A program made the translations under genes and the position numbers. A stretch of DNA of 64,000 nucleotides from Candidatus Acididesulfobacter guangdongensis (GTDB lineage Bacteria > SZUA-79 > Acidulodesulfobacterales > Acidulodesulfobacteraceae): assembly GCA_004195045.1 (NCBI GenBank), contig SGBC01000001.1, positions 682,001-746,000 of the forward strand. The letters run 5' to 3'. The notes beneath the pieces were generated by a model. That model did no database searches. It was not told the DNA's origin and worked only from the letters and a program-made list of their open reading frames with translations. The first letter of the stretch is position 1, and each line of letters begins with the position of its first letter. Positions 18,290-45,393 of this stretch are shown one piece after another.

Positions 18290-18338
18290 TATTTCTTAAA
18301 TATAATCATCATAAGTAAAAATGGAGGAAAAAGAAAAA

Positions 18339-28892: not shown

Positions 28893-29006
28893 AATTACCA
28901 AATTACTTGTAAGGATTGATAGATTTTAGTTAGTTTGCCTCGATTTTTATTTTATAAAAAACCTTATTATTTTCCATAATAACTTAAATTTACTTAAAAT
29001 ATAGGC

Positions 29007-29075
29007 ACTTCCGAACTAAAGGGCGTAAAGGTAGCTAATTTTATAATTTCTGTAAATTCATTTTATAACATTATA
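29007..29075 (+). pseudogene. scrap of a TBDR joined to a repeated non-coding tag
   Basis: The segment at about 29007-29035 (ACTTCCGAACTAAAGGGCGT and on) nearly matches the 3' part of TBDR-4 at 41491-41520 (coding SGLKGVKVA). It then changes abruptly to a 40-bp sequence (29036-29075) that recurs at 41844-41883 beside another TBDR scrap. This marks an old recombination or deletion end point. Confidence 0.6.
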
Positions 29076-29138
29076 CAATAAATAATATCCTTAAATTTTC
29101 TGTTTATTATTTCGACCTTCGCCTAATTATCACAAAAT

Positions 29139-30367: not shown

Positions 30368-30507
30368 AATTGCCATGATTCTATACCATAATAAATAATA
30401 AATAACCAGAATCGGTTAATTAACTACTTTAATGTATTTTATCTGTTCGTTTACTGTTTTGTCGTTCATATTTTTACACCATATTTAATTTATTATTAGT
30501 TCTGATT

Positions 30508-30564
30508 ATTACAAAACTTTAACAAAACTTTAACCCTATTGTAATAATAATTATGTTTTAATAT
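30508..30564 (+). promoter_or_regulatory. Pho-like promoter of predicted sRNA-1
   Basis: Units at TTACA, TTTAACA (30518), TTTAACC (30529) and TGTAATA (30540) are 11 bp apart, with TTTAAT/TAATAT at 30557-30564 as -10. The first 45 bp are almost identical to the box at 45241, including the CCCTA between units. No ORF follows before the terminator at 30602. Confidence 0.68.
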
Positions 30565-30569
30565 AGGGA

Positions 30570-30650
30570 AGTAAAACTTTTATGCTTTACCTCTTCTCTC
30601 TCATTTGCATGTTGTGATTAAGTGAAGTAATCACAGCATGCAAATGTTTT
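30570..30650 (+). ncRNA. predicted small RNA 1 (Pho-box driven)
   Basis: A transcript starting near 30570 would be about 80 nt. It contains a small hairpin (GTAAA 30571-30575 with TTTAC 30586-30590), then a C/U-only stretch CCTCTTCTCTCTC (30590-30602). An 18-19-bp terminator hairpin follows (CATTTGCATG..TGTGATTA, 30602-30620, with its complement 30628-30646) and then four T. The layout matches the second candidate at 45303. No ORF fits. The C/U-rich single strand could pair with purine-rich ribosome-binding sites. Not experimentally shown. Confidence 0.55.
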
Positions 30651-30680
30651 ATTACAATCAAGAATTACTTATTTTAATTT

Positions 30681-30803
30681 TAGAATCGTATTTATTCAGC
30701 TTTTCACAAAATATATGCTATAATAGCAAATTGTGAATAATGGAAATATACAATATAAAGATACCGAAAATACTTCAATTATACTTCAGAAAGCCAAAAA
30801 AAT
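30681..30803 (+). repeat. imperfect direct repeat with 31418-31541
   Basis: Both copies begin TTAGAATCGTATTT, include a TATAAT-like hexamer and run into the first 25 codons of an MNT gene. In this copy the start has become GTG and the frame ends soon. The copy at 31418 leads into the intact MNT gene, so this is a partial duplication of that gene's promoter and N-terminus. Confidence 0.7.
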
Positions 30804-30950
30804 GAATTTATTGAAGCAATTTGTTTTCATTGTCAGCAAGCAGCAGAAAAATATTTAAAGGCTTATTTAGCTTATAACAATAAAGAAATTAAAAAAACTC
30901 ATGAAGTAATAGATATAATTAAAATAGTAAAAGAACTGGAGGAAAACAAA
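30795..30950 (+). pseudogene. HEPN-domain fragment
   Basis: In the frame of the following ORF the translation reads NEFIEAICFHCQQAAEKYLK and continues AYLAYNN..THEVIDIIK. The FHxQQAAEKxLKA signature identifies a HEPN domain. It has no start and lacks its second half. It is spliced at its 5' end to the duplicated MNT start in a different frame, and at its 3' end runs in frame into the ORF at 30951. Confidence 0.65.
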
Positions 30951-31142
30951 ATGCCTATAACTATAAACTTAGAAGACGACCCATTTTATCTTGAAGGAAA
31001 AGCCGAAGGTATGAGTGCCGCTAAAAAAACTTATGTTATAAACTCTTATAAAAATCTTAATCTTTCTCCTGAGCAGATTGCTTCTATTGTTAACGATACT
31101 GCCGAAAATGTCATTGCCATATTACAAGAAGAAGGGTTATAA
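30951..31142 (+). CDS. 63-aa protein resembling an Rpn/PD-(D/E)XK C-terminal tail
   Basis: The ATG has GGAGG 9 nt upstream, so it may be translated. The protein has INLEDDPFYLEGKAEGMSAA followed by a helix pair ending LSPEQIASIVNDTAENVIAIL. This resembles the C-terminal helix-turn-helix tail found on transposase-like or Rpn nucleases (EGxxxG, then LSxExIAxItgls). It is probably the leftover end of a larger gene fused downstream of a HEPN fragment; function of the short product is doubtful. Confidence 0.4.
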   Translation: MPITINLEDDPFYLEGKAEGMSAAKKTYVINSYKNLNLSPEQIASIVNDTAENVIAILQEEGL

Positions 31143-31193
31143 ATAAAAATAAGATACAAAAAAGATATTAAAAAAATAGCCGATTTATTTATT

Positions 31194-31386
31194 AGTATTT
31201 TTTGGATGAAATAAAAGTAAAATTTCTTAAAAATGATATCTCAAAATAAATAAAAATGGCGTTTGATAATTTATTTTATTTTGATTTAAATGATTATTTA
31301 ATGTTTTTATGTCATTAAATTTTAACATATTTTTTTGCAAATAAGGAAATTTAATTTTAAAATTTCTTTATTAATTTATGGGTTCA
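31194..31386. repeat. 193-bp direct repeat, copy 1
   Basis: Matches 38509-38701 without any indel and with only two visible substitutions. It contains no gene; the longest conserved reading frame is a 20-codon ATG ORF (MAFDNLFYFDLNDYLMFLCH) without a ribosome-binding site. Terminal inverted repeats are not seen. The two copies are in the same orientation, 7315 bp apart. Confidence 0.9.
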
Positions 31387-31417
31387 TTATAGTATTAACA
31401 AATGACGACAATATATT

Positions 31418-31541
31418 AGAATCGTATTTTTCAATTTTTCACAAAATATAAATATATAGTATAATAATGAATTATGAACAATATAAATATACAATATAAA
31501 GATACAGAAAATACGGTAGTTATACTTCATAAAGCCAAAAA
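31418..31541 (+). repeat. direct repeat partner of 30681-30803
   Basis: Carries the promoter (TATAAT-like at about 31460) and first codons of the intact MNT gene that starts at 31474. See the copy at 30681, where the same block is fused to a HEPN fragment. Confidence 0.7.
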
Positions 31542-31836
31542 AATAATTACTGAAGAAATAGAAAAAGCCGACTACAAAGTCGAAGCTATCTACCTTTTCG
31601 GTTCAAGGGCAAGGGGAGACTATAAAGAAGACAGTGACCGGGATTTCTTTGTGATTACGGATAAGAACATACTTAAGGAAGATATGAAATTAATGTTGCG
31701 CAGTATCCGCAGAAAAATGGCTGACGACAATATATCTAACGACGTAATCGTTAAATCTAGATATATATATGAAAATCAAAAAAGGGATACCGGATTTTTA
31801 TCATATTATGTTAATAAAAAAGGGATAAGTTTATGA
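31474..31836 (+). CDS. MNT-domain nucleotidyltransferase
   Basis: A 120-aa minimal nucleotidyltransferase with IYLFGSRARGDYKEDSDRDF (about 37-56): the GS motif and a D-x-D metal pair, with Arg between the acids where Ile or Leu is usual. Its stop overlaps the next MNT gene by 4 nt, so two MNT proteins are coupled, which is uncommon. No intact HEPN partner remains next to it; the nearest HEPN is the fragment at 30795. Probably an antitoxin or orphan AMP-transferase. Confidence 0.75.
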   Translation: MNNINIQYKDTENTVVILHKAKKIITEEIEKADYKVEAIYLFGSRARGDYKEDSDRDFFVITDKNILKEDMKLMLRSIRRKMADDNISNDVIVKSRYIYENQKRDTGFLSYYVNKKGISL

Positions 31837-32117
31837 AGAAATCTGCCGAAATATTATTAAACAAAGCAGAAAAGGAATTTTTCAACGGCAAAGGAGCAGA
31901 AATTTTTTTATTCGGCTCCAGGGCAAAAGGAAATTTCCGTCCAACATCCGATATAGATTTGGCGGTTTTATCCGAAGGCGATATTTCTTATAAGATATCT
32001 TTGCTTAAAGAAATTTTAGAAAACAGTAATTTAGCTCAAAAAGTAGACATAATAGAATTAAAAAAAGCTCCTCAATTAAAGTCTGTAGTTGACAGTGACG
32101 GTATAAGATGGATTTAA
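31833..32117 (+). CDS. MNT nucleotidyltransferase (HI0073-like)
   Basis: A 94-aa nucleotidyltransferase with IFLFGSRAKGNFRPTSDIDL (about 29-48), giving an intact GS and D-x-D. It overlaps the preceding MNT gene by 4 nt and the following substrate-binding partner by 10 nt. That order, catalytic then helical subunit, is the HI0073/HI0074 two-subunit arrangement. The partner is frameshifted, which may leave this enzyme without its substrate-binding half. Confidence 0.78.
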   Translation: MKKSAEILLNKAEKEFFNGKGAEIFLFGSRAKGNFRPTSDIDLAVLSEGDISYKISLLKEILENSNLAQKVDIIELKKAPQLKSVVDSDGIRWI

Positions 32118-32290
32118 AAAAATTTAATGATTTTGTTGCATCTCTTGGGAAATTTAAAGAAGCTTATGAAAAAACTATCGCCAATGTAGGCAATAGTGAA
32201 TATTTCTTTTTTAGAGACTCTTCAATACAGAGATTTGAATTTACCGTAGAGGTTTTGGGAAACTATTAAAAAATATTTTAGAGGTGTATA
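32108..32290 (+). pseudogene. HI0074-like nucleotidyltransferase substrate-binding subunit, frameshifted
   Basis: The ORF from 32108 reads MDLKKFNDFVASLGKFKEAY, then FFRDSSIQRFEFTVEV, the hallmark of the HI0074 helical subunit (FRDSxIQRFEFTxE). It ends early at 32269. In the next frame the same stretch gives FWETIKKYF, the expected continuation of the helix. One extra base in the T-run near 32255 explains the break. Even repaired, the gene runs straight into vapB, so its C-terminal half is also lost. Confidence 0.7.
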
Positions 32291-32291
32291 T

Positions 32292-32492
32292 ATGAGAACA
32301 AATATTGATTTAAACGATTATTTAATTAATGAGGCTATCAGACTGACAAAAATAAAAACAAAAAAAGAAATTGTAAATTTAACGCTGGAAGAATTTGTAA
32401 CTAATTGCAAGAAAAAGAATTTAACTGAAATAAAAGGTAAAATAAAATTCGCTGATAATTATGATTATAAAACATTAAGACAGGAAAAATAA
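32292..32492 (+). CDS. vapB: VapB-family antitoxin
   Basis: A 66-aa protein of the short VapB (DUF2191) type. The N-terminal ribbon-helix-helix-like segment MRTNIDLNDYLINEA is followed by IKTKKEIVNLTLEE and the ELKGKIKF-like linker (here EIKGKIKF) that docks in the PIN toxin. GAGGTG lies 6-8 nt upstream of the ATG. It is followed at once by a frameshifted VapC, so it may now be an orphan antitoxin. Confidence 0.82.
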   Translation: MRTNIDLNDYLINEAIRLTKIKTKKEIVNLTLEEFVTNCKKKNLTEIKGKIKFADNYDYKTLRQEK

Positions 32493-32504
32493 ATAATCGT
32501 TCTC

Positions 32505-32904
32505 GTGGATACTTCCGTATTAATAAATTATTTTAAAGGTAATTTGAATGAGAAGACAAATTTATTTGAAGAAATATTGCAAAGTAACTTACAGTTTGGC
32601 ATTAACAACTTCATTTATCAAGAAATACTTCAAGGAGCGGCGACCGAAAAAGAATTTAATATTTTAAAAGAATATTTAAGCAGTCAATTGTTCTGAATTA
32701 AAATTTAATACAGAATCTTACGAAAATGCTGCAAGAATATATTTTAAAGTTAGAAAAAAAGGAATTACAATCAGGAGCGCTATTGATTTGCTTATTGCAC
32801 AAACAGCTGTAGAAAATAATTTGTTTTTGCCGCACGATGATAAAGATTTCACAAATATTGCAAAAATTTTTCAAGAATTAAAAGAATATAAGTCAATTTC
32901 TTAA
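32505..32904 (+). pseudogene. vapC: VapC PIN-domain toxin, frameshifted
   Basis: The first part (from GTG 32505) reads VDTSVLINYFKG with the first catalytic Asp and YQEILQG with the Glu. It stops at 32696. Shifting one base at about 32694 restores ELKFNTESYENAARIYFK, then IRSAIDLLIAQTAVEN and DDKDF with the remaining acids, ending at 32904. A one-base insertion (or two-base loss) has therefore split a complete PIN ribonuclease. VapB precedes it. Confidence 0.8.
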
Positions 32905-33323
32905 AATATAACCTATGAACAATTCAAACCATTTAAATTTTGGAGTTAATACAGACTTATCTACAGTTAAATTCTGCAAGCCTGCTTGAAGAATATAGGC
33001 AATTTTCTTCTAAAAGCATTATCAATGTTGTTAAAGCGTTTGACGGTTAACTATCTCCATCGATTGCTTTATCGTTTTCAAAGAAAACTTTTGCATTTAT
33101 TACACCATAACTTATTAATTTTTATTAATAGGTTGAAAATGAAAACATATATATAAAGATTTAAAAATAATTTCAAAGAAAATTTTTATAACCGAAGCTA
33201 TAAGGTTATAAGTAATATTAAAAATGTTTTTTTAATGCTCTTCAAATATTTTCCCCGTTTTATTAATCCTTTCTAAGCGTTATAATCATCAAATTTATCT
33301 AATAATCAGATTAATTTATTAAT
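32905..33323. other. non-coding/decayed stretch before the 33324 box
   Basis: About 420 bp with no intact gene. A short open stretch near 32945-33050 reads SASLLEEYRQFSSKSIINVV in one frame without a start, possibly a gene tail, but I cannot assign it. The rest is plain AT-rich DNA. Confidence 0.35.
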
Positions 33324-33420
33324 TATTACAATATCGTAACTTATTGTAATAAAAATTTAATAAATTTTAACTAAAACTTAACCTAAGTTTCACAATAATG
33401 TAATAATTATTTGATACGAT
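33324..33420 (+). promoter_or_regulatory. Pho-like box (eight repeats), the longest
   Basis: Heptamers start at 33324, 33335, 33345, 33356, 33366, 33377, 33388 and 33399 (steps 11 or 10). They include TATTACA, TGTAATA, TTTAATA, CTTAACC, TTTCACA and TGTAATA. A -10-like TACGAT (33415-33420) follows after 9 bp. It precedes the small TPR gene and TBDR-3. Confidence 0.68.
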
Positions 33421-33702
33421 TACAAAATAACAATTTTACAACAATCCTTTGAATATTTATATAGTTTGTGAGGGTCGTTATTTTAATTTTTACAGATTAT
33501 TTTAAATTTTTAAAGATCTTAAATATTTTAATTTTTTTTAATGTTTTATATTTTGACCCTAACTAATTATTGATTGGCAAGTGCATTCAGCAAGTAATAA
33601 TTTATAAAAAAACAATAGTAAAATGACTTGGAGAAAAAAATAGATATTATGAATAACATGACGACAATTTTATCTGCCAATAGGCAATATGAAAGGATGA
33701 CG

Positions 33703-34077
33703 ATGAAGAAGAAGATAAATAATGGTTTATATTTTAAAAAATTAACATATATAATAGCGATAATTTTATTATTTTATATACCTGCGAAAGCCTTTTCAAT
33801 GCAAAATACCGATACTCAATCCGCTAATTTTCAATATAAAAAAGGCTTAGGCGCAATAAATGGCAAATATTATTATACGGCGGTACAACATTTTCAAAAG
33901 GCAATAATAATCAGACATGATTTTTCTAATGCATGGGCACATATGGGTGTGGCTTTATATAAGTTAGGTTATCCGTCTCTGGGCATAGTATGTTTAGAAA
34001 CAGCTCTTAAATATAATCACAAAATTATATGGGCAGCTAATTTGTTAAAAAAATATAAACTTTCAAAAAAACGTTAA
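33703..34077 (+). CDS. small secreted TPR-like protein
   Basis: The ATG at 33703 is preferred (GAAAGGA upstream, signal peptide placed correctly); the frame is open from about 33628. The protein is about 124 aa with a signal sequence (YIIAIILLFYIPAKAFS) and then two or so tetratricopeptide helices pairs: YKKGLGAINGKYYYTAVQHF and NAWAHMGVALYKLGYPSLGI. It sits between an eight-unit Pho-like box and TBDR-3, as the larger TPR gene at 17428 precedes TBDR-1, so a TPR protein next to a receptor recurs. Confidence 0.62.
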   Translation: MKKKINNGLYFKKLTYIIAIILLFYIPAKAFSMQNTDTQSANFQYKKGLGAINGKYYYTAVQHFQKAIIIRHDFSNAWAHMGVALYKLGYPSLGIVCLETALKYNHKIIWAANLLKKYKLSKKR

Positions 34078-34164
34078 TTTAATTTAGTTATAGGATTATG
34101 CATAGGGACAACCCTGATTTGATAAGGATAAAAAAGAGTTTTCTTGATATTGCCAGTTTCAAAA

Positions 34165-34460
34165 ATAAATAGTTAACAAAAATAACAAAAATAATAACAA
34201 TTAAACTAACAATAACTTGGAGGAGTTATGAATAACAGAATTAAACAAGTAGCCGAATATCTTTCCTTATTTGTATTAGGGGATGGCTATTATCAAGATA
34301 ATACAAAAAAGTATCAACGCCGATTTAAAATTAAATTAAACACCGAAAGGAATAGCAATTTAAATGTAAATTATTATAAGATAATTTTTAAAAGTCTTTT
34401 ATTATTCATTGCCGCATGTATGATGCTTTTATTTAATACAGTGCTTGCAAATGCGGATAG
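34165..34460 (+). repeat. shared 5' module of TBDR genes, copy in TBDR-3
   Basis: About 260-290 bp covering the ribosome-binding site AACTTGGAGGAGTT, the first about 60 codons and the internal signal sequence are nearly identical to 39150-39402 (TBDR-4). The ends also match a diverged copy at 25500-25880 (TBDR-2). The sequence diverges sharply after the signal cleavage site, while the plugs and barrels are far less alike. This points to gene conversion or cassette exchange of the 5' end. Confidence 0.82.
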
Positions 34461-36690
34461 TTCAATTAATAGTTCAACTGCTAAGATTAAAAAAACGCAT
34501 AAAATTGCAGAGGTTACATCGCAGCAAATTTTGACAAAAACCAAAAAAGCTCTCAGGGAAATGAATAAAATATTAACCGCAAAAAAAATATTTAAATCAA
34601 CTCAGACTGCGGCAGTTCTAAATAGAAAAGGAATGAAGCAAGCTCAGGATACAGGAGGAGGCGCCGTCCAAGCCTTACAATTATTGCCGGGAGTGAGGGT
34701 TTCAAGCTATGGCGGCAATAGCGGGCTTGCTAGAGATGAAATTGCTATCAGGGGTATTAAAGTTGGATGGTCTTCTGTAGCAGGCGATTTAGAAAAAAAT
34801 GGCATTCAAATGTTATTTGACGGAATCCCTGTTACAAATCTTTCAGGCGCTAGTGGCGGTTTTGATTCTAATGAATACCCTATAGATCAATTTTTTAGCG
34901 GAATGAATGTTATATATGGTCCAGGTAATCCTGCTAGCAGATGGTATAATAGTTTAGGTGGTACAGTAAATATGATTCCAATTCAACCGACAATACGTCC
35001 ATTTAATGAAACTAATTTTTCTTTTGGATCTTTTGATACATATACATTAGATGATGAAATGAGTACAGGTATGCACGACGGCTGGGACGGTGTAGCAGCA
35101 GCCGGTTATACGCATGCAGACACTTTTAGAACAGGACCGTTTAATGCTCCAGGTTATGGGTATGCATTTTTCGGAAAGTTAATAAAAATTTTTAACGGAA
35201 ACTCATTTAGTTTAGGAGCCTATGCTTCAAGAACCCATGAATATAGACCTAATTTTATTCCTGTTTCTCCGATTTCAGGTATTACGACTGAAGGGTTAGA
35301 TGCCAATGCGCCGTTATATAGTGAACAAACAAGTGGATATTATTCATCACTGCCGTACAATATGTGGTATAAATTATTATTAACTCAAACAACGATGCTT
35401 TATTCAAAACTTAATATAAATTTGACTAAAAATTTAGGACTGCATACTTTAGTGTGGTATAGACATGGTTTTAGAGAACACGATAGAGTAGATAATTATT
35501 TTTTAACAGCAGGAGAAGCGTCTTATTACGAAATGTGGCAACCAAATTCTAATACATATGGAGAGAAAATATATTCTAACTATAAAATTTTAAATAATAA
35601 TTTAAAATTCGGAGAATATGATATATACGGAAGATTAAATTATAATTACTCTCCTTATACAAATACGGCTCCGACAAGCTATACAACTTATTATAATAAT
35701 TATTTATCAATTTTTGCTCAAGATAAAATAAAATTATTAAAAAATTTAATTATTGAGCCAGGTCTGGATTATGTTGGATTTGACACAAGTGATTTTACAA
35801 ATGAAACTTATTATCAATCAGCAGCTCCACCCGTAATTGCGCATATTTACCAATTAGAGCCATCTATCGGAATTAATTACCATGTTTTACATAATTTATC
35901 CTTATATGGAACTTGGGCTATTTCTTATCAAGCTCCAACGGCATCGGCATACGGTTATTCGAGTACTGTGAATGTTGCTGATACTGCTCCTATTAGAAAT
36001 ACAGATACTGAAGCAGGCTTTAAAGTAATGATAAAAAAAGATAAATATTTACATCATTTTGTTTTTAACGCAAATTATTTCCAGAATATATTATCCAATG
36101 AAACTATTTATATATATCAACCGTTTCCTACACCACATACTCTAGCTTCTAATGGCAGCGCATTTTATAAAGGAGTGCAAATAAGTGCCGCAGAAGACCC
36201 TTATACAAATTTACATCTTTATGCAAATTATACATATCAGAGTGCTAATTATAAAAATTTTTATTCAACAGTAAATCTTCAACAGTATCCTAATTATCCT
36301 GTGTCAAATATACCAAATTCAATTTATAATATCGGTGCTTATTATACTATTCCAGAAAATACAACAATTTATGATATTAAACTATGGGATATGTACACAG
36401 GATCGCAATATATGTTTAGTAATGTGTATGCAGGACCAACACGGCAAAAGATGCCATCTTATAATATCGTAAATTTCTCAATTAACGTTAAAACAGTTAA
36501 TTTTGACAAAATGGTGCCTGGGCTAAGAAGCGTGCAATTAAGTGCTTCAGTTTATAACTTATTAAATAAGAAATTTAATTCAAATGAATATTTCTCAAGC
36601 GGTAGTTATTTTGGAGCAGGTGCAGGTGCAGTGTTGGCTAACCCCGGTGCTCCTAGGATGTTTTTTTTAAGTGCCACTATGAAGTTTTAA
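34228..36690 (+). CDS. TonB-dependent receptor (TBDR-3)
   Basis: 820 aa with GGAGGAG before the ATG. An N-terminal extension of about 55 residues (MNNRIKQVAEYLSLF..) precedes the internal signal sequence (KIIFKSLLLFIAACMMLL, cleaved near NADS, about 75). The plug includes ALQLLPGVRVSSYGGN near 149 and DEIAIRGIKVGWS near 171; the barrel ends FLSATMKF. Its plug signature LLPGV/IRGI is closer to classical siderophore-type receptors than those of TBDR-1, -2 and -4. Preceded by a Pho-like box and a TPR gene. Ligand unknown. Confidence 0.9.
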   Translation: MNNRIKQVAEYLSLFVLGDGYYQDNTKKYQRRFKIKLNTERNSNLNVNYYKIIFKSLLLFIAACMMLLFNTVLANADSSINSSTAKIKKTHKIAEVTSQQILTKTKKALREMNKILTAKKIFKSTQTAAVLNRKGMKQAQDTGGGAVQALQLLPGVRVSSYGGNSGLARDEIAIRGIKVGWSSVAGDLEKNGIQMLFDGIPVTNLSGASGGFDSNEYPIDQFFSGMNVIYGPGNPASRWYNSLGGTVNMIPIQPTIRPFNETNFSFGSFDTYTLDDEMSTGMHDGWDGVAAAGYTHADTFRTGPFNAPGYGYAFFGKLIKIFNGNSFSLGAYASRTHEYRPNFIPVSPISGITTEGLDANAPLYSEQTSGYYSSLPYNMWYKLLLTQTTMLYSKLNINLTKNLGLHTLVWYRHGFREHDRVDNYFLTAGEASYYEMWQPNSNTYGEKIYSNYKILNNNLKFGEYDIYGRLNYNYSPYTNTAPTSYTTYYNNYLSIFAQDKIKLLKNLIIEPGLDYVGFDTSDFTNETYYQSAAPPVIAHIYQLEPSIGINYHVLHNLSLYGTWAISYQAPTASAYGYSSTVNVADTAPIRNTDTEAGFKVMIKKDKYLHHFVFNANYFQNILSNETIYIYQPFPTPHTLASNGSAFYKGVQISAAEDPYTNLHLYANYTYQSANYKNFYSTVNLQQYPNYPVSNIPNSIYNIGAYYTIPENTTIYDIKLWDMYTGSQYMFSNVYAGPTRQKMPSYNIVNFSINVKTVNFDKMVPGLRSVQLSASVYNLLNKKFNSNEYFSSGSYFGAGAGAVLANPGAPRMFFLSATMKF

Positions 36691-36786
36691 GTAAAATATA
36701 TAAGTAATTAATAACTAAATATATATATATATATATTAATAACTAAATTAAATTAACAAGTTATAATGTGTTAATGTTAATAAAAT

Positions 36787-36825
36787 TTTATGCCATAGAC
36801 CAAATGCTCTGATCTATGGCATAAA
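36787..36825. terminator. terminator after TBDR-3
   Basis: TTTATGCCATAGA (36787-36799) and TCTATGGCATAAA (36813-36825) form a perfect 13-bp stem with T and A flanks on both sides. It is about 100 nt after the TBDR-3 stop. Confidence 0.65.
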
Positions 36826-37050
36826 TTTATCTATTAATTATATAGTTATATTCGCCCCTATAGCTAACTAATAGGTGCCATAATTTATAAATAAATCAGT
36901 TGAAATGGAATAAGGATGAAGGTATTTTAAATTGTATGAAACTATATATATACTATATAATTTACATATCTTAAAAAAATTTTTCAGTTAAATAATTATA
37001 TATTTTTTATAATATGATATAATAATGAAATCAATTTAGAGATTTTAATA

Positions 37051-37221
37051 ATGACGAATTTTGAATTATCAACACACGCTCAAAATATGCTGAAAAGAGC
37101 GGAATATTTCCGAATAATGGCTATAAGATACTGTTGGTAATTATAATTGCAAGAACATAGGATACGACAATAATATTCATTATTTTAAAAGTATTTCTGA
37201 AGCGTCAGTTATATATAATTA
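37051..37221 (+). pseudogene. DUF4258-like protein, frameshifted with stops
   Basis: Starts MTNFELSTHAQNMLK. After one surplus A in the A-run near 37095 the frame should continue ERNISE, then W-L..DTVGNYNCKNIGYD, NNIHYFKSISEAS. The HAxxMLKERNIS and final HYFKxI patterns are those of DUF4258 proteins. Two in-frame stops near 37118 and 37126 also interrupt it. A dead gene, typical of toxin-antitoxin debris. Confidence 0.6.
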
Positions 37222-37350
37222 AATCATAAAAAAATACGAGTTAATTTACTTAAAAAGAAATTTAATTCTAATTTAATTTCTTTAAATAAATAATATATGA
37301 AAAATTAATAATATTAATTAATAATATTATTTAAAGGATGGTTATATTAT

Positions 37351-38433
37351 ATGGCTAATAAAACATCGGAAGGAATTAACTTAAAAAGCACGAAGCAGGA
37401 AATTTTAGAAGCATACGAAAATGTTAAAAAAGATTTGGAAGAAAAGGAAAAACAGTCATTAAACGCCAATAAAAAAATTGAAGAAAAGAAAAATACGGAA
37501 ACAATTGAAAAAGTAGATAAAATAATTGAAAATAATGTAAACGATAAAATAAGTTCATTAAAATCAGATATAATAAATTCCCTTAATGAATTGTCGTCAA
37601 AACTGTCTCAGGCCGATATTGATTATAAAAACATCAAAACGGCAATTGAAATAAAAGATAACGACCTTAAGGAAATTTACGGTATAGAGCATTCCGCTTT
37701 ATCTTTAGCTTCGCTTATAGAAGCCAACAACGTAAAAATAATTCAGCTTGAAAAAGATTATTCCGTTAGAAACAATACATTAGAAACAGAGCTTAGCGAA
37801 TTAAAAAATAAAATTGAATTTGAAAAGAAATCTTATGAAAATCTTTCTAAAGAAAAGGAAAATGAGTTTAAGCTATACTGGGACAGAAAAAAAGAAGAAT
37901 TTGAATATAATTTCAAAAGAGAAAGTGACCAGAAGTTAAATGAGCTAAACGATGAGTTAAAATCCCTAAAACGCTCAATAGAAGAAGAAAAAGATAAATT
38001 CCAAAAAGATATTGCAGAAAAAAATAAAGAATTAGAATTAAGAGAGAATAAAATATCGGAAAAAGAGCAGTTTAATACCGAACTTGCCGAGAAAGCCTCC
38101 GCCTTCCCTGCCAAACTTGAAGCTGAAGTATTAAATGCCGTTAAAACAACGACAGAAAAACTTAAATCGGAATTTGAATTACAGAAAGAATTAATTCATA
38201 AAGAATATGAAGGCAAGATTAATGTTTTAAATACAAAAGTAGAATCCTTAGAAAAGATTATAAACGAACAGGATAAACATATATCCGTATTAACTTCTCA
38301 GCATGAAAAAGCATATATGCAGGTACAGCAGATAGCTACCAGCGCAATACAAGGAAATGCAGATAAAAATTCTCAAAATAAATTTGAACAAATTCTTGAT
38401 AAAATTGGAAAAATACAGGTTTCAGAAAAGTAA
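37351..38433 (+). CDS. coiled-coil protein, unknown (360 aa)
   Basis: Not recognised as a family. Almost the whole length is predicted helix with heptad-rich Glu/Lys/Leu sequence. Two coiled-coil blocks (about 10-60 and 120-320) flank a less charged segment (about 95-120, EIYGIEHSALSLASLIEAN). No membrane segment or signal. A conserved-looking end, QVQQIATSAIQGNADKNSQN, follows. Similar coiled-coil proteins of unknown role are scattered in related genomes by my recollection, but I cannot name one. AAAGGATGG is the likely ribosome-binding site. It lies between debris and the second copy of the 193-bp repeat. Confidence 0.6.
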   Translation: MANKTSEGINLKSTKQEILEAYENVKKDLEEKEKQSLNANKKIEEKKNTETIEKVDKIIENNVNDKISSLKSDIINSLNELSSKLSQADIDYKNIKTAIEIKDNDLKEIYGIEHSALSLASLIEANNVKIIQLEKDYSVRNNTLETELSELKNKIEFEKKSYENLSKEKENEFKLYWDRKKEEFEYNFKRESDQKLNELNDELKSLKRSIEEEKDKFQKDIAEKNKELELRENKISEKEQFNTELAEKASAFPAKLEAEVLNAVKTTTEKLKSEFELQKELIHKEYEGKINVLNTKVESLEKIINEQDKHISVLTSQHEKAYMQVQQIATSAIQGNADKNSQNKFEQILDKIGKIQVSEK

Positions 38434-38508
38434 AGATGTATTTATTTTTTTAAAAAATACCGCTTTTTAAACTTGACTGCTATCAAAAAAGTTGTATAAA
38501 TAATCTTA

Positions 38509-38701
38509 AGTATTTTTTGGATGAAATAAAAGTAAAATTTCTTAAAAATGATATCTCAAAATAAATAAAAATGGCGTTTGATAATTTATTTTATTTTGAT
38601 TTAAATGATTATTTAATGTTTTTATGTCATTAAATTTTAACATATATTTTTGCAAATAAGGAAATTTAATTTTAAAATTTCTGTATTAATTTATGGGTTC
38701 A
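38509..38701. repeat. 193-bp direct repeat, copy 2
   Basis: Colinear with 31194-31386, two substitutions only. Its right end abuts, within a few bases, the point where a minus-strand gene is cut (38707). Recombination between the copies would delete or circularise 7.3 kb that includes TBDR-3, vapB and the MNT genes. Confidence 0.9.
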
Positions 38702-38706
38702 GTATA

Positions 38707-38825
38707 ATGGTCCCCATTTTATTAGACAATCTTCCGAATTCTTGATTTAGCTTTCTATGCTCCTCGCGGTTTTCTTCTTTGTATTGTTTTAAATCGTAGC
38801 GCATCTCGTTCTTGAAATTTATCAT
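38707..38825 (-). pseudogene. N-terminal fragment of a coiled-coil/nuclease-type protein
   Basis: From the ATG at 38825 the minus strand reads MINFKNEMRYDLKQYKEENR, then EEHRKLNQEFGRLSNKMGT. The pattern NxxfGxLsnkmGTxxED is the lead-in to a family of PD-(D/E)XK/DUF3782-type proteins. The reading is cut after GT, exactly beside the 193-bp repeat, so the rest was removed when the repeat arrived or recombined. Confidence 0.55.
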
Positions 38826-38883
38826 TTATTCCTAAAGATGTATAAGTGCTTCTTCAAGCCTTTAACTCCGCAAGGATTTATTT

Positions 38884-38959
38884 TATTACAAAAATGTAAC
38901 AATATTGTAACAAAAATTAACAAAACCTTCATAATACTGTAACAATTTTCTGTTAGAAT
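38884..38959 (+). promoter_or_regulatory. Pho-like box (six repeats) and TAGAAT
   Basis: Heptamers TATTACA (38884), TGTAACA (38895), TGTAACA (38906), ATTAACA (38916), CTTCATA (38927) and TGTAACA (38938) are followed after 9 bp by TAGAAT (38954-38959). It lies 212 bp before TBDR-4. Confidence 0.7.
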
Positions 38960-39149
38960 CTTACTAATGTATCGAAAAATAAATTATAAATAAATTATAA
39001 GTAATGAATGTCTTTGTCTGCTCTTAACATTTAATAGTTAAAAATGTAATCAACTAATTGTTATCATTCAAGTATTGGCAGTTTGTGGTATATATATAGG
39101 TAATCGGCTCAAAACAGGATCAGTTTTGATTGAGAAATAACAATGACAA

Positions 39150-39402
39150 TAACAATAACTTGGAGGAGTTATGAATAACCGAATTAAACAAGTAGCCGAA
39201 TATCTTTCCTTATTTGTATTAGGGGATGGCTATTATCAAGATAATACAAAAAAGTATCAACGCCGATTTAAAATTAAATTAAACATCGAAAGGAATAGCA
39301 ATTTAAATGTAAATTACTATAAGATAATTTTTAAAGGTCTTTTGTTATTTATTGCCGCAGGTATGATGCTTTTATTTAATACAGGGCTTGCAAATGCGGA
39401 CA
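39150..39402 (+). repeat. shared 5' module of TBDR genes, copy in TBDR-4
   Basis: Near-identical to 34186-34460 over the ribosome-binding site, N-terminal extension and signal sequence. See that entry. Confidence 0.82.
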
Positions 39403-41666
39403 GCAATAGTGCAACTGTTAGTCAAACTGCAAATACCACCAATGCTAATACAAAGAAGGCAATTAAAATTGCAAAAATTACTAAAGAAGCTAAAGAACTT
39501 AAGAAAAAGGTCCCATTAAAGGCAACCTATACTGAAAACATTATTAGTGCTAAAACAGTGCGCAATGCATCTCCAATGCAAAATGCTCAAACTATTTTAG
39601 CGAGTAAGCCTTCCATAGATGCTTTTAGCACAGGTCCAAACGGGATGAATTCTACGGTTACTTTTAGAGCATTCCAAGGAGACCAGTTTTCTGAAACATT
39701 TGACGGAATTCCCATGAACAACCCATTTAATGGGTATGCTACTAACGGCGCTGATATGTACAATAGCATTCCTTTCACATTAAACGACATATCAAACATT
39801 AATATTTATAACGGTATCAACAATCCATCCGTTAACTCTTATAATTCTCTGGGAGGCACTATTAATTTTCAGCCTCGTCAGCCGTCAAAACATTTTGATG
39901 CTTCGGCAGGCATCGGCTACGGCAGTTTTGATACTATCAATTGGAATGCTCTTATAAATACAGGTTCCGTAGATGGTTTCAGGCAGTTATTTGCAATTAA
40001 CAGGCAGACAAGCGGCGGATGGGAACAAAATGTTAACGATCAAAATACCAATTTTTATTACGCGGGAATTTTACCTTACAATAGTGGATTATCCGAGGTT
40101 TCAGCATATTTAATAGTTAATCAGAATGCAGGATATCAATCAAATGAGATACCGTTACCGTTACTCAACCAATATGGATATGATTATTACTTTCCGCTCA
40201 ACGATCTTTATTATTACAATACTGATATGAGGCTTAATGCCATAATAGGAGATAAAAGCTACATAAGCCGCTATATGACTATGAGCGCGAAGGCTTATTT
40301 TACGAATGATAATTATAGAGATCGTGAATTTAATAACCCCAATTTGACTCAATATCAAAGAAATCTTTTTGGTCTATATGACGCTTATGCTTCCAAATAT
40401 AATAGCCCTCAACAGACCTATCAATTATATGGTCAAATCACATCTACCTTTGGGTTTACTCCAAAAATAGAATTAAAGTTGCCTTATGATAATTTTGTAA
40501 CAGCCGGCGGAAATGTTCAATATAGTTTAGGACATTCAACAAGCTTTGAGGCGGCTTCTTATAATGTACCTGAAATTTTATCCGGACCGCTCCAAAATGA
40601 CAACTGGGACGAGCATTATAATTCAGTTATGGCAAATGGTTATGTTCAAGATAATATCAGCCTACTTGGCGGGCATATACATATAACGCCGGGATTAAAA
40701 TATCTTTATCAATATGATAGTTCTAACGATGATTCAACACTTGGCTATAGCGGGTACTACGTACCGGCAGGTTCAATATCTAACGCAGGTACTTTTCTTT
40801 CCCCGACTGTAGGCATAAATTATTTACCTGTTAAACATCTCAGCTTTTATGCAGCATGGGGTCGTAATATTAAGTTTGCCAATATTGGAGATTATTACGA
40901 CAGTGTATCACAATATAACAGAAGTACAGGAAATTATATTAATCTTCCTTTGGTATTAAAACCGGAATATGTTAACGACTATGAGATTGGAACTAGGTAT
41001 AAAAGAAATGGATTTTACGGTATGCTCGATTTCTACAGGGAGAATTTTACAAATACTTTTATTTCTGTTCCTGTCCCCGGGATTCCTTTGTCGGCGGGTC
41101 TTGATGAAACAATAAACGGCGGTAATTCCCAGTATGAGGGTATGGAGGTTTCATTATCTCAGCATTTGGGACATTTACTTTTGGGACACTGGACAATTTA
41201 CGGTAACTACTCTTATAATCAGGCGGTATTTACATCAACATTTACTACAGATAACAGCGATGGAAAAGTCACAGCCGGAGAATCGCTTGGAGATACTCCA
41301 AAAGATATGGCAAACATTGGTTTACGATGGGGTTATAAATATATGCATCAGCATATTAAAGCACATTTGTCGAGTAAGTTTGTAGGTTCTTATTTTACCA
41401 ATGAGTCTCAGACGGGTCTGCCGAATGGAATGTCCGTACCGCCTTATTTTATTATGAATTTAGGCGTATCTGATTATATTCCTGTCAAAGCTTCCGGACT
41501 AAAGGGCGTAAAGGTAGCATTATATGTAGATAACATTTTTAATAGAGAATACTATCCAGAGGCTTATGCTAATAATTATGGTAATTCAGTTTATCCCGAA
41601 GGATACTTATCTGTTATGCCCGGCATGCCGCGTTTTGTATTTGCAAGCGCAACCGTTAAATTTTAA
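39171..41666 (+). CDS. TonB-dependent receptor (TBDR-4)
   Basis: 831 aa; GGAGGAG precedes the ATG. The N-terminal extension and internal signal sequence (KIIFKGLLLFIAAGMMLL, cleaved near NADS) are shared with TBDR-3. The plug has TVTFRAFQGDQFSETFDGIP near 160-180 and NNPSVNSYNSLGGTINFQP near 217-236, making it a sister of TBDR-1 and TBDR-2. The barrel ends FASATVKF. It has its own Pho-like box. A scrap of a gene like its 3' part occurs at 29007, so this subfamily has been duplicated and lost before. Confidence 0.9.
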   Translation: MNNRIKQVAEYLSLFVLGDGYYQDNTKKYQRRFKIKLNIERNSNLNVNYYKIIFKGLLLFIAAGMMLLFNTGLANADSNSATVSQTANTTNANTKKAIKIAKITKEAKELKKKVPLKATYTENIISAKTVRNASPMQNAQTILASKPSIDAFSTGPNGMNSTVTFRAFQGDQFSETFDGIPMNNPFNGYATNGADMYNSIPFTLNDISNINIYNGINNPSVNSYNSLGGTINFQPRQPSKHFDASAGIGYGSFDTINWNALINTGSVDGFRQLFAINRQTSGGWEQNVNDQNTNFYYAGILPYNSGLSEVSAYLIVNQNAGYQSNEIPLPLLNQYGYDYYFPLNDLYYYNTDMRLNAIIGDKSYISRYMTMSAKAYFTNDNYRDREFNNPNLTQYQRNLFGLYDAYASKYNSPQQTYQLYGQITSTFGFTPKIELKLPYDNFVTAGGNVQYSLGHSTSFEAASYNVPEILSGPLQNDNWDEHYNSVMANGYVQDNISLLGGHIHITPGLKYLYQYDSSNDDSTLGYSGYYVPAGSISNAGTFLSPTVGINYLPVKHLSFYAAWGRNIKFANIGDYYDSVSQYNRSTGNYINLPLVLKPEYVNDYEIGTRYKRNGFYGMLDFYRENFTNTFISVPVPGIPLSAGLDETINGGNSQYEGMEVSLSQHLGHLLLGHWTIYGNYSYNQAVFTSTFTTDNSDGKVTAGESLGDTPKDMANIGLRWGYKYMHQHIKAHLSSKFVGSYFTNESQTGLPNGMSVPPYFIMNLGVSDYIPVKASGLKGVKVALYVDNIFNREYYPEAYANNYGNSVYPEGYLSVMPGMPRFVFASATVKF

Positions 41667-41790
41667 ACTTATAAATATATAATTTGAAAGATTTAATCAT
41701 CATCAATACATATAAATTTAAATAAAATAAAAAAATTAAACAAAGTTTAAAAATTTAAGTTAATATAAAATATTATTTAAAAGATCTTCT

Positions 41791-41839
41791 ATCAAATTGA
41801 ACGTTGAAAAATAAAGAGTTTTTTAACGTTCAATTTGAT
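41791..41839. terminator. perfect 15-bp hairpin after TBDR-4
   Basis: ATCAAATTGAACGTT (41791-41805) and its exact complement (41825-41839) around a 19-nt loop. It is 125 nt beyond the TBDR-4 stop and has a weak T tract, so it is a probable terminator or RNA-stabilising stem. Confidence 0.55.
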
Positions 41840-41843
41840 AAAT

Positions 41844-41883
41844 AATTTTATAATTTCTGTAAATTCATTTTATAACATTATAC
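41844..41883. repeat. 40-bp tag repeated at 29036-29075
   Basis: Begins TAATTTTATAATTTCTGTAA and runs to ACATTATA. Both copies lie beside TBDR scraps and mark recombination boundaries. Confidence 0.75.
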
Positions 41884-41910
41884 TTATACCAATAAGATAT
41901 CCGATTTATT

Positions 41911-42136
41911 TATTCATTATTATAATTTCAGTAAAATGGGAGGCACTATAAAAGAAATGCATCTTAAAGGTGTTACGCTTTCTTTAAGCATAGATGATAT
42001 GTTAAATAAACAATATTACGCTGCTGATATGTTTATAAATAGTATAATGTTAAACAACGGATTAGCATATAATTTTGAACAAGGTTTGCAGGGTCTTCCA
42101 AGATTTACGATGTTGACGGCAAAGGTCAAGTTTTAA
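41911..42136 (+). pseudogene. C-terminal fragment of a TBDR-2-like receptor
   Basis: Reads HYYNFSKMGGTIKEMHLKGV, then TLSLSIDDMLNKQYY and LPRFTMLTAKVKF. This closely matches the end of TBDR-2 (HYFNFSKMGGALKEMHLKGV .. MPRFTMLTATVKF). Only the last strands of the barrel remain; there is no start. A lost fifth receptor. Confidence 0.82.
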
Positions 42137-42162
42137 TTTTAATATATAAGATTTTTATAATT

Positions 42163-42556
42163 ACTCTGGCGTATTCTGATTCTCTATATATTTTTTAATA
42201 ATACTCAACGAAGCTCCGCCACAGGACACCGCAAAATACGACGGGCTCCATAGAGTGTTCTTCCATTAATGCTTTTTAATTTCAGGAAATTCGTTTTTTA
42301 ATTTTCTTGACGATACTCTCTTTAAAGAATTTAAAAGTTTAGATATAGAGATTTTAGGCAGATAATTGATTAATAAATGAACGCAGTGTCTTCCAGTTCT
42401 AATTTCTATTGACTTATCTATAGACTAATAGTATATAATATACTTATTAAAATAAATCAAGCATATAAATTCAAACTTAAGACCAATTCAGATGAAGTAG
42501 CTAGTTAGCGGTTTGCTAAAGAATCCTCAAGCTTATAGCGGGAGGAGAAGGTCAAG
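42163..42556 (-). mobile_element. IS200/IS605 remnant: broken tnpA and element end
   Basis: On the minus strand 42163-42420 encodes the C-terminal part of a Y1 transposase: HLLINYLPKISISKLLNSLK, VSSRKLKNEF, a stop, then WKNTLWSPSYFAVSCGGASL and IIKKYIENQ with the catalytic Tyr. The first His of the HUH site reads Cys, and an in-frame stop follows KKH. At 42500-42556 the sequence GAATCCTCAAGC..GGGAGGAG..GTCAAG resembles the right end of such elements. tnpB and the left end are missing. Confidence 0.72.
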
Positions 42557-42559
42557 AAA

Positions 42560-42925
42560 ATGAAAACTGAAAAATACTATAAGATTAAAGAGTTACCGTT
42601 TAATAAGGTTCTTTTTTGGTCTTATGATTTTGATAAATCTGAATTATCTTTGTTTTTAATAATGATTTCCGTAATAGAAAAAGGTGATTTAGACGATTTA
42701 TTTATGCTTTTTAAGATTTTTTCCTTTCAGGAACTACATGAAACTTATTTCAATGAAATAAGGCCTATGTTGTCAGGCGAAGATAAGAAATACTATAAGT
42801 TTAGGCCGGATATGAAACCGGATATTAAAAGCGTTAGATTAATGGATATGATATTTAAAGCAATTAAAGAAATAAAAGGGCGTCAAATAAATATTATTAA
42901 TAAATCGAATTTAAATGTGGCTTAA
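42560..42925 (+). CDS. putative antitoxin partner of the AbiEii-like gene
   Basis: A 121-aa protein with no recognised motif. It is short, soluble and rich in aromatic and acidic residues (VLFWSYDFDKSELSLFL). It overlaps the AbiEii-like toxin gene by 11 nt, the usual coupling of an antitoxin to its toxin. The ribosome-binding site GGGAGGAG 14-21 nt upstream appears to be supplied by the end of the IS200/IS605 remnant. Function is inferred from position only. Confidence 0.5.
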   Translation: MKTEKYYKIKELPFNKVLFWSYDFDKSELSLFLIMISVIEKGDLDDLFMLFKIFSFQELHETYFNEIRPMLSGEDKKYYKFRPDMKPDIKSVRLMDMIFKAIKEIKGRQINIINKSNLNVA

Positions 42926-43583
42926 AGAAACTGAAAAGGTTTTGAATCTTCTATCTACGGAAGAAAAATTAAGCGATTTTGTTTTTGTAGGCGGTTCTGC
43001 CATTTCATACTACATTCACCATCGTTTATCCGAGGACATTGATCTTTTTTGCACTTATAATCAGTTAAAACAAAGGATTCTTAATAATATAATTGAAAAA
43101 TTACGAAACAATGAACATAATATTGTAGTATTGCCAGTTGAAGATAGAACTATTCAAATGGATTTGGATATAGATGGAGTAAAAACTACTTTTTTTTCGT
43201 GGAGTTTGGATTTATTAAAAACAAACAGTAAAGCGTTTAAAGGCTATATTAAAATTGCGGATTTAGAACTTTTGGCAGGAATGAAAGCATACACTTTCGG
43301 CCGCAGATTAAAAATAAGGGATGCCTATGATTTATATGCTTTATCGCAAGAGATAGGTTTTGAGAATATAATTGAGCTCGCCAAAGATTTTTTTGGGAGC
43401 CTTTTTAGTGAAAGACTTTTTATAAATCAGGTGCAGGATTTAAGTTTATTGCAAGGTGATAAAATAGAAGATTACTTAAATCCTAAGTATAAAGTCTCTA
43501 AGAATGATATGGAAAACTACTTTACGGCAGAAGTCGAAAAGTATATTTTAAAAAGTCTAGAGCGGGAAATAGAAAACAAATAA
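42915..43583 (+). CDS. AbiEii/AbiGii-type nucleotidyltransferase (toxin-like)
   Basis: A 222-aa member of the nucleotidyl transferase AbiEii/AbiGii family (PF08843). The hallmark FVFVGGSAISYYIHHRLSED followed by IDLF gives the GG, HR-x-S and D-x-D features. A mid-protein KIADLELLAGMKAYTFGRR..RDAYDLYAL matches the family's D-x-x-DL helix. AbiEii proteins transfer nucleotides to block growth during phage attack (type IV toxin-antitoxin). Intact and coupled to the upstream small gene, this is the only apparently complete module among the TA debris. Confidence 0.8.
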   Translation: MWLKETEKVLNLLSTEEKLSDFVFVGGSAISYYIHHRLSEDIDLFCTYNQLKQRILNNIIEKLRNNEHNIVVLPVEDRTIQMDLDIDGVKTTFFSWSLDLLKTNSKAFKGYIKIADLELLAGMKAYTFGRRLKIRDAYDLYALSQEIGFENIIELAKDFFGSLFSERLFINQVQDLSLLQGDKIEDYLNPKYKVSKNDMENYFTAEVEKYILKSLEREIENK

Positions 43584-43723
43584 TAACTAATGTGAAATCA
43601 TTGCGATTTCCCTTTAGTTTGTTTAAATCCTCGATAAAAAAATGTGTTTTAACCCAACTTCACCACTTTTATTGTTCTAAAATTATAACATATTGATATT
43701 ATTACATTCTATTACTTCTTCTA

Positions 43724-43893
43724 ATGCTTAATCTAAAAAAAACCATTAAAATTGCGAAAATTACAACATCCAGCGCTTATTCTCAAACGCAGAAACAGCT
43801 TATGAAGATAAGCAAAAAATTTACTAAAAAACACATTTTTAAATCTACGCAGGATGAACATCTGGTGACAAAAAAACAGATAATTTGCTGTTA
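43724..43893 (+). pseudogene. N-terminal fragment of a TBDR (post-signal segment)
   Basis: Reads KKTIKIAKITTSSAYSQTQK, then KKFTKKHIFKSTQDEHLV. TBDR-3 has KKTHKIAEVTSQQ.. KIFKSTQTAAVLN and TBDR-4 KKAIKIAKITKEA at the same place. The signal sequence and everything after the plug start are gone, ending at a stop at 43893. Confidence 0.7.
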
Positions 43894-43934
43894 GAGAATA
43901 TAAATATTAATTAAGAGCTTTGGAGAGATTATAA

Positions 43935-44950
43935 ATGAAAAAAAATTATAAATTCAAAATATCTATTGTTATATATACGTTATTCACCGGCTTTTTATTT
44001 TATTTGATGCCAATATCTGCTGCTTACGCTTATAATTATATACCGCTGCCCCATTATCTTCCAAATAATTTTCTTAAGCAAATACTTGTTAAAATCACTA
44101 AACAAAATATTAAGGAATATACGCATGAACTCCCTACAGGTAGATTTATCAGCCCTGTCGGTAAAATTACGGCAACGCAAAATTTTCCGACTAATGTAAA
44201 AGTTTATAAAAACTATATTATTATTGTTAGCAATCCATCAAAAAAAATCCAAAAATTAACATTATATAACAGAAAAAATTTAAAACCTATTGCGATTCTG
44301 GAAGCTTTTGAAGGAAGAAATAATGTTGAATATAACGGTCCTATAATAGAATTTGCGCAGCCGTCTGATTTAAAAAAATATCCCGAATACAATACATCTT
44401 CTGAACTATTTTCAAGTAATATTACTATTCCTTATTCTAAAATTCCGACCACCGTTATAACTCACCAGAGCTTTTTTCAGGGTCTTACGGTAAGCAAAAA
44501 CGGAACAATGTACGCTGCTGGCGGAGTAACAGGCAATGTTTTGGCGGTTAAATACATAAAAGGCAGGCTTAAAGCTTTAAAAAGCTATCATCTTAAATGG
44601 CAGAGTTTTCCTAAAAATCAATATCCTTATCAGTATCAGGGTCATCAGAATATACGCCCTTATCTTTTTTATCCCGACTATGTTACGCTGTCAAAAAATC
44701 AGAAGTCTATTTATGCAACAGGTCTGCTTTCAAATTCAATAGCTAAAATAAACTTAAAGACGGGCGTTGTAAAATATGCGAACGCTGGACCGTATCCTTT
44801 TGCGGTAAGTCTTGCGGATAACGGAAAAAGAATTATAGTAAGCGACTGGGGAGGCGATGACGTAAGGGTATTTACTTCTTCGCTTAAATATTTAGGTAAA
44901 ATATCATTCGATAAATGTTTAACGATAATACCGGCATACCGTCACATCAA
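43935..44950 (+). pseudogene. propeller/phosphatase paralogue cut by a deletion
   Basis: The ORF (346 aa in frame) has a signal peptide and the first about 320 residues of the propeller found at 22394: ELPTGRFISPVGKI, HLKWQSFPKNQYPYQYQGHQ, YATGLLSNSIAKINLKTG and ADNGKRIIVSDWGGD align one to one. At about 44905 similarity stops and the DNA becomes the 3' end of a TBDR in another frame. The phosphatase domain is absent, so the product could at most be a propeller with a foreign tail. The order matches an ancestral phosphatase-TBDR pair like 22394-28252. Confidence 0.8.
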
Positions 44951-45202
44951 ACCATGCCCGGATACAATTTGTTAAATGCGTCATTAAGCTTCAAGATTCC
45001 TTTTCCTCATTATGTTGCAGGCAGTCCTAAAGTGGCAGATATAAAATTAACAGTTTTAAATTTATTAAACAAGCAATATGATGGTTATGAAGATTTTTCT
45101 TCAGGAGGATATTACGGTCCTAATACCAATAGCGTAGGTGCAATATTAGCTTATCCAGGAATGCCGATATCCGCTTACGCAACATTAACTTTAAAATTTT
45201 AA
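44915..45202 (+). pseudogene. C-terminal fragment of a TBDR-3-like receptor
   Basis: Reads MPGYNLLNASLSFKIPFP, then IKLTVLNLLNKQYDGYEDFS, SGGYYGPNTNSVGAIL and YATLTLKF. TBDR-3 ends with MPSYNIVNFSIN.., VYNLLNKKFNSNEYFSSG and LSATMKF. The upstream barrel was deleted together with the phosphatase half, joining the two genes. Confidence 0.8.
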
Positions 45203-45240
45203 AAAAATTTCTTAATAAGGCAAAAAAATAGATTATGGAA

Positions 45241-45297
45241 TGTTACAAAACTTTAACAAAATTTTAACCCTATTGTAATAATAAGTATGGTTAAATA
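45241..45297 (+). promoter_or_regulatory. Pho-like promoter of predicted sRNA-2
   Basis: TGTTACA (45241), TTTAACA (45252), TTTAACC (45263) and TGTAATA (45274) stand at exact 11-bp steps, with TTAAAT/TAAATA (45291-45297) as -10 after 10 bp. It is nearly identical to the box at 30508, although the genes upstream of the two differ. Confidence 0.7.
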
Positions 45298-45302
45298 TAA
45301 AT

Positions 45303-45393
45303 AAGTAAGCATATTGCGCTTGCATCTTCTCCTCCCCCTGCTGAATATTGTACTTAAGTTATTTTAATTGCAATATTCAGCTTTTTATTTTTT
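45303..45393 (+). ncRNA. predicted small RNA 2 (Pho-box driven, anti-SD-like)
   Basis: Predicted start near 45303. A 6-bp hairpin (GTAAGC 45305-45310 with GCTTGC 45318-45323) is followed by the C/U run TCTTCTCCTCCCCCT (45325-45339). A terminator stem comes next (GCTGAATATTG 45340-45350 with CAATATTCAGC 45371-45381), then T5-A-T7. CTCCTCC (45329-45335) is the exact complement of GGAGGAG in the ribosome-binding sites of TBDR-2, -3 and -4. Same order of parts as sRNA-1. A structured but untranslated leader scrap is the alternative. Confidence 0.57.

Follow-up and report, generated by a model that had tools for sequence, protein, structure and literature searches.

Knowledge of bacterial small RNAs (sRNAs) comes mostly from model bacteria that possess Hfq. 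Pyrimidine-rich motifs resembling the anti-Shine-Dalgarno (anti-SD) sequence are found in the CCUCCUCC-motif sRNAs of alphaproteobacteria (CcsR and similar), which occur in multi-copy arrays, and RepG of Helicobacter pylori, whose host is not known to possess Hfq, has a defined target and carries its C/U-rich pairing region in the loop of the terminator. The site on which RepG acts is a G-rich stretch of an mRNA leader (PMC8295292). In the AT-rich genome of Staphylococcus, the Hfq-independent sRNA IsrR pairs with SD sequences through single-stranded C-rich regions, and the rarity of G-rich stretches outside SDs in AT-rich genomes has been put forward as an argument for C-rich sRNA seeds in this genus (PMC9410917). 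The window analysed here, a 64,000-nt stretch of contig C1 (33% G+C, 67% A+T), belongs to a 2.2 Mb genome in five contigs (G000) of Ca. Acidulodesulfobacterales, an uncultured acid-mine order (PMC6776010). It contains two loci, sRNA-1 and sRNA-2, which we consider fairly likely to be paralogues in an undescribed family of Pho-controlled, trans-acting and probably Hfq-independent anti-SD sRNAs. Searches of Rfam at gathering and relaxed thresholds returned no family and only chance matches (E of about 0.2-0.5), and no multi-copy Pho-box sRNA family of this anatomy was found in the open-access literature, whose coverage is incomplete.

The initial annotation had described two near-identical boxes followed by no ORF, and these are present as arrays starting at 30506 and 45240. 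Scored as four 7-nt units at an 11-nt period, the array of sRNA-1 (TTATTAC-AAAA-CTTTAAC-AAAA-CTTTAAC-CCTA-TTGTAAT, 30506..30549, + strand), which is conserved in relatives, reached 32.5 and that of sRNA-2 (ATGTTAC-AAAA-CTTTAAC-AAAA-TTTTAAC-CCTA-TTGTAAT, 45240..45283, + strand) 32.7; random Markov sequence gives about six matches scoring at least 24 per 64 kb. At the pstS promoter of contig C2, an independent reading gave an array of the same four-unit, 11-bp-period kind with a score of 37.0. As in Pho-regulon promoters, direct repeats of about 7 nt stand in the -35 place at an 11-nt period, and a -10 element lies about 11 nt downstream. This element is an extended -10 in both cases (TGT TTTAAT at 30554..30562 for sRNA-1 and TGG TTAAAT at 45288..45296 for sRNA-2, both +), and its motif, TATGnTTWAAT, is kept in all aligned copies except one small variant. 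A search of viral contigs for the promoter core, bearing on spread by viruses, gave no match.

Predicted starts near 30569 and 45303 and ends at about 30652 and 45386 give RNAs of about 84 nt each (sRNA-1, 30569..30652, from promoter geometry, terminator, fold and full-length homologues; sRNA-2, 45303..45386, from fold and covariance-model match; both +), which corrects the ends of 30650 and 45393 proposed earlier. The fold z-scores are -6.2 and -8.3, respectively, and none of 200 dinucleotide shuffles was as good. The order of parts first described, namely a 5′ stem, a pyrimidine run, a hairpin and a T-run, is correct in both RNAs; the small 5′ hairpin has its place in this order, but being weak and absent from several relatives it cannot be counted as conserved. 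The pyrimidine run of sRNA-1, CCTCTTCTCTCTC (30590..30602, +), is an unpaired seed region of 13 nt (shuffle p 0.007), and that of sRNA-2, TCTTCTCCTCCCCCT (45325..45339, +), has 15 nt, includes CTCCTCC at the position claimed for it (45329-45335) and, with the bases preceding it, can form 16 bp with the start region of an outer-membrane protein mRNA discussed below. The terminators consist of a 19-bp hairpin and T-run at 30602..30650 in sRNA-1 and a hairpin and T-run, supported by covariation and fold z, at 45340..45386 in sRNA-2 (both +). The longest ATG-initiated peptide within sRNA-1 has 11 aa and lacks an SD, and no ATG occurs anywhere in the transcript of sRNA-2; a small coding peptide is ruled out, as a conserved start or SD is absent.

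Conservation was followed by DNA searches of 60 relatives and with a covariance model, R1, which yielded 12 strong full-length matches in five of the seven genomes of the genus, at one to three copies each (two in G000, three each in G002, G004 and G006, one in G005). A further copy, in G013, is interrupted by a contig end. An sRNA-1 type (A subtype) and an sRNA-2 type can be distinguished, and the proposed relatedness of the two RNAs is supported. In the joint alignment of both subtypes, 10 of the 12 predicted terminator pairs show at least one double pair-keeping change; in the A subtype alone six pairs show double compensatory changes, a number attained by none of 500 shuffles and not approached by six slid registers. 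A pyrimidine run of at least 11 nt with at least four C is found in all 14 g1-type members, a set that takes in G013 and one G019 locus, against a background of 1.4% of 45-nt genome windows. The distance from run to stem is normally 0-3 nt (14 nt in G019). Seed sequences drift among copies while the pyrimidine content stays. The initial annotation had named a promoter kept in relatives without hairpin and C/U run as the outcome that would count against it; box, run and hairpin are all kept, and this combination of a conserved structure bearing compensatory changes with a conserved unpaired seed is that of a trans-acting sRNA. Against the sRNA reading, three type-B copies are without the U-tract. 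As a separate observation, two type-B copies, on G004:C68 (L111:540-620) and G006:C34 (L121), lose it to an identical downstream sequence, AATACAATGACC...TTAGGGACAGA, which is perhaps the end of a mobile element inserted at the hairpin.

A second branch was reached with another covariance model, R2, built from three weak matches, which identified about 10 divergent loci in a second genus (G013, G018, G019, G020, G021, G022, G024, G027, G028 and G029, those of G013 and G024 being identical within the stretch read). Every locus combines a Pho array, AATACTGTAAGC near the expected 5′ end and a long hairpin. AATACTGTAAGC is invariant in this branch except for one G-for-C variant in G022, and it recurs unchanged on G002:C40 in the first genus. 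The cores, for example ATTACCTCC, TTCACCTCCC or TCTCTCCCCC, are pyrimidine-rich and anti-SD-like, with ACCTCC or CTCCCCC in most. Most of these loci adjoin a PF04185-type phosphoesterase or a phosphate:H+ symporter-like gene, the neighbours being named by similarity to already typed proteins. In several genomes of the second genus (L247-L253) the Pho-driven RNA also has a gene for a small CxC...CxxC protein (about 60-100 aa) in its vicinity. In G022 and G027 this gene begins about 30-40 nt past the hairpin and has a G-rich RBS, and the RNA there may therefore have a local (cis) role.

Within the window, arrays of the same type as those of the sRNAs lie on the + strand upstream of phosphoesterases at 13636 and 22388, exbB at 15036, TBDRs at 18321 and 39171 and a TPR/TBDR pair at 33628/34228, so that the window contains a Pho-regulon island, among whose best-scoring arrays are those of sRNA-1 and sRNA-2. 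The island (13470-41666), with Pho arrays ahead of two PF04185 phosphoesterases, exbB/tonB and TBDRs, suggests TonB-dependent uptake of organic phosphate compounds. C-terminal remnants of TBDRs and an exact 41-nt repeat (28990-29076, 41843-41883 and 44915-45202) mark repeated TBDR recombination in the island. Nucleotidyltransferase (MNT/AbiEii-type) toxin-antitoxin-like genes and fragments are found between the TBDRs (31474-32117 and 42560-43583), and the Ffh gene adjoins sRNA-2. The Ffh protein shares 95-98% identity with MAGs among which is Candidatus Acididesulfobacter diazotrophicus AP1, and about 80% with SZUA-79 types, which places the genome in Ca. Acidulodesulfobacterales.

A mechanism can be proposed in which, upon phosphate starvation, phosphorylated PhoB would bind the 11-bp repeats, the extended -10 would direct transcription of the RNA, and the long hairpin and U-tract would end the transcript. 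The pyrimidine stretch 5′ of the terminator would stay single-stranded and pair, probably without Hfq, with purine-rich SD regions, blocking the translation of selected mRNAs; for sRNA-2 and an outer-membrane protein (OMP) mRNA at G000:C1:634806, the duplex would cover SD and start codon. With the Pho regulon active, the predicted effect would be to curb competing synthesis, be it non-phosphate outer-membrane synthesis or another kind. For Hfq, no match to PF17209 was found in the 99%-complete genome, with positive controls. Targets were sought in 723 predicted ORF start regions on C1 and 292 on 400 kb of C2, using heuristic start calls, and seed-pairing energy mostly tracked SD strength (r 0.61 and 0.64). 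The best match of sRNA-2 was the OMP (-29.4 kcal/mol, rank 1 of 723), with GCAUCUUCUCCUCC and its neighbours pairing over 16 bp with AGGAGGAGAGGAUGCG across SD and AUG. Only 1 of 150 shuffled seeds matched this energy anywhere in the 723 regions, and the terminator remains folded in the co-fold. This OMP, which has no Pho array, is the best candidate target of sRNA-2 as judged from the predicted pairing; the strong pairing occurs in this genome only, pairings of the orthologues being weaker (-15 to -18). The best target of sRNA-1 was not significant (matched by 16 of 150 seed shuffles). The earlier suggestion of a C/U stretch that could pair with SDs is supported in that each RNA has an exposed run; one target was significant for sRNA-2 and none for sRNA-1. 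Since seeds drift among copies, there is no single conserved target set. Outer-membrane barrels were over-represented among sRNA-2 matches on C1 in a post hoc comparison (p 0.002 after SD correction, 12 proteins); the independent sample from C2 comprised three outer-membrane genes only (p 0.09) and did not confirm the excess, which therefore stays a lead and is not adopted as a general rule. Separately, a paralogue of the candidate-target OMP lies directly upstream of pstS (G000:C2:222194, L215), with GGAGGTAAAG ahead of its ATG.

The dependence of pairing energy on SD strength agrees with another reading, in which the RNAs are general translation brakes with no defined targets, mimicking the anti-SD of the 16S 3′ end and competing for strong SDs, or titrating ribosomes or an RNA-binding protein. 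ACCTCC/CACCTCC-like cores kept in the second genus and seeds that drift with their pyrimidine content kept are likewise as expected; however, one mRNA stands far above expectation for sRNA-2, and at sRNA abundance ribosomes would outnumber free anti-SD RNA, making this reading unlikely. Similarly improbable is a version in which the multi-copy, Pho-induced RNAs, with an exposed ACCUCC-like 16S anti-SD mimic beside a rigid terminator, would under phosphate starvation slow the translation of strong-SD mRNAs broadly and without Hfq, the drifting seeds of the paralogues adding targets such as the OMP mRNA.

The surroundings of the genes bear on a third possibility, that the elements are not regulators at all and that their Pho promoter and terminator insulate or attenuate neighbouring genes, having been carried along when TBDR 3′ ends recombined. 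Throughout the first genus the gene upstream of the sRNA shares its strand, and in many cases it is a TBDR, the C-terminal remnant of one, a PF04185 phosphoesterase or a GT4 glycosyltransferase. sRNA-2 directly follows a C-terminal TBDR remnant (44915..45202, +), and on G004:C68 both sRNA copies likewise have this remnant ahead of them. This pattern fits a joint duplication of TBDR 3′ ends and sRNA genes, and the position just 3′ of a same-strand gene, as well as the small genes close behind the hairpin in G022 and G027, would suit an insulator. There is, however, no consistent downstream gene: the downstream neighbour varies, and at 6 of 10 relative loci its orientation is convergent. Moreover, the pyrimidine run and the 5′ AATACTGTAAGC are kept though unneeded for insulation, and the hairpin pairs covary, even if a terminator alone would select for covariation too; insulation is accordingly quite unlikely. 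The variable and convergent downstream genes also rule out a leader or attenuator for the first genus, so the initial annotation was right to see sRNA genes here instead of leaders, and each has, at the sequence level, the make-up of an independent short transcription unit with its own promoter and terminator and no ORF. Downstream of sRNA-2, 511 nt past the terminator, lies a beta-barrel porin-like gene (45903..47498, +) with a C-terminal ARIAF and no Pfam or NCBIfam match, which may serve the order as its phosphate porin. In most family genomes the orthologue is preceded, at a distance of 116-212 nt, by a Pho array of its own; no such array was found in G000, G003 and G004, and in L009 and L010 the sequence ahead of the porin gene yielded neither array nor sRNA. 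The adjacency of sRNA-2 and porin is not general. The porin was rejected as a target, its purine-rich RBS being kept equally in genomes without a detected sRNA and shuffled seeds pairing equally.

The neighbouring TBDR mRNAs had been proposed initially as the specific targets, to be repressed or timed via GGAGGAG. This heptamer, complementary to CTCCTCC, does lie ahead of the TBDRs at 25559, 34228 and 39171, which make up 3 of the 12 C1 genes having it, and sRNA genes adjoin TBDRs at many loci; since pairing energy tracks SD strength, the complementarity alone is weak evidence. TBDR-2, -3 and -4 ranked 63-90 for sRNA-2 and 84-217 for sRNA-1 among the 723 start regions, 9-17 of 48 SD-matched genes equalled them in the case of sRNA-2, and with sRNA-1 the real seed was usually matched by shuffled ones. 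Their start regions are paralogous copies (TBDR-3 and TBDR-4 share 96% identity across 268 nt surrounding the start), and several TBDRs have Pho arrays of their own upstream. Because these regions have no pairing advantage over matched genes and the pairing is not conserved in relatives, where TBDR start regions reach only -4 to -12 kcal/mol against their own sRNA seeds, a TBDR-specific repressor is very improbable and was rejected.

The favoured reading, a family of predicted Pho-controlled anti-SD sRNAs, would place a structurally supported sRNA family tied to phosphate starvation, a stress to be expected in iron-rich acid waters, in an uncultured acidophilic order without detected Hfq. It would also link a Pho-regulon island of phosphoesterases, ExbB/TonB and TBDRs to predicted post-transcriptional control, for which sRNA-2 offers one concrete, testable candidate target. 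With the PhoB/PhoP-controlled sRNAs of other bacteria, sRNA-1 and sRNA-2 share a Pho-box promoter and, by prediction, transcription during phosphate limitation. They differ from CcsR and the other CCUCCUCC-motif sRNAs in having no Rfam match, other promoters and another lineage, and from RepG, whose pairing region sits in the terminator loop, in that their pyrimidine run precedes the terminator stem. By their predicted action, the closest likeness of kind is to IsrR and to FsrA of Bacillus, which are also nutrient-stress sRNAs directing a C-rich single-stranded region against SDs in an AT-rich genome. IsrR and FsrA, however, are Fur-controlled and have several C-rich regions, whereas sRNA-1 and sRNA-2 stand under a Pho array and have one 3′ pyrimidine run; the targets differ, and no relation in sequence or synteny was seen. 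Nutrient-stress sRNAs that carry a C/U-rich anti-SD seed are thus already represented by FsrA and IsrR, and on their predicted mode of action sRNA-1 and sRNA-2 are a new family of that kind under putative Pho control.
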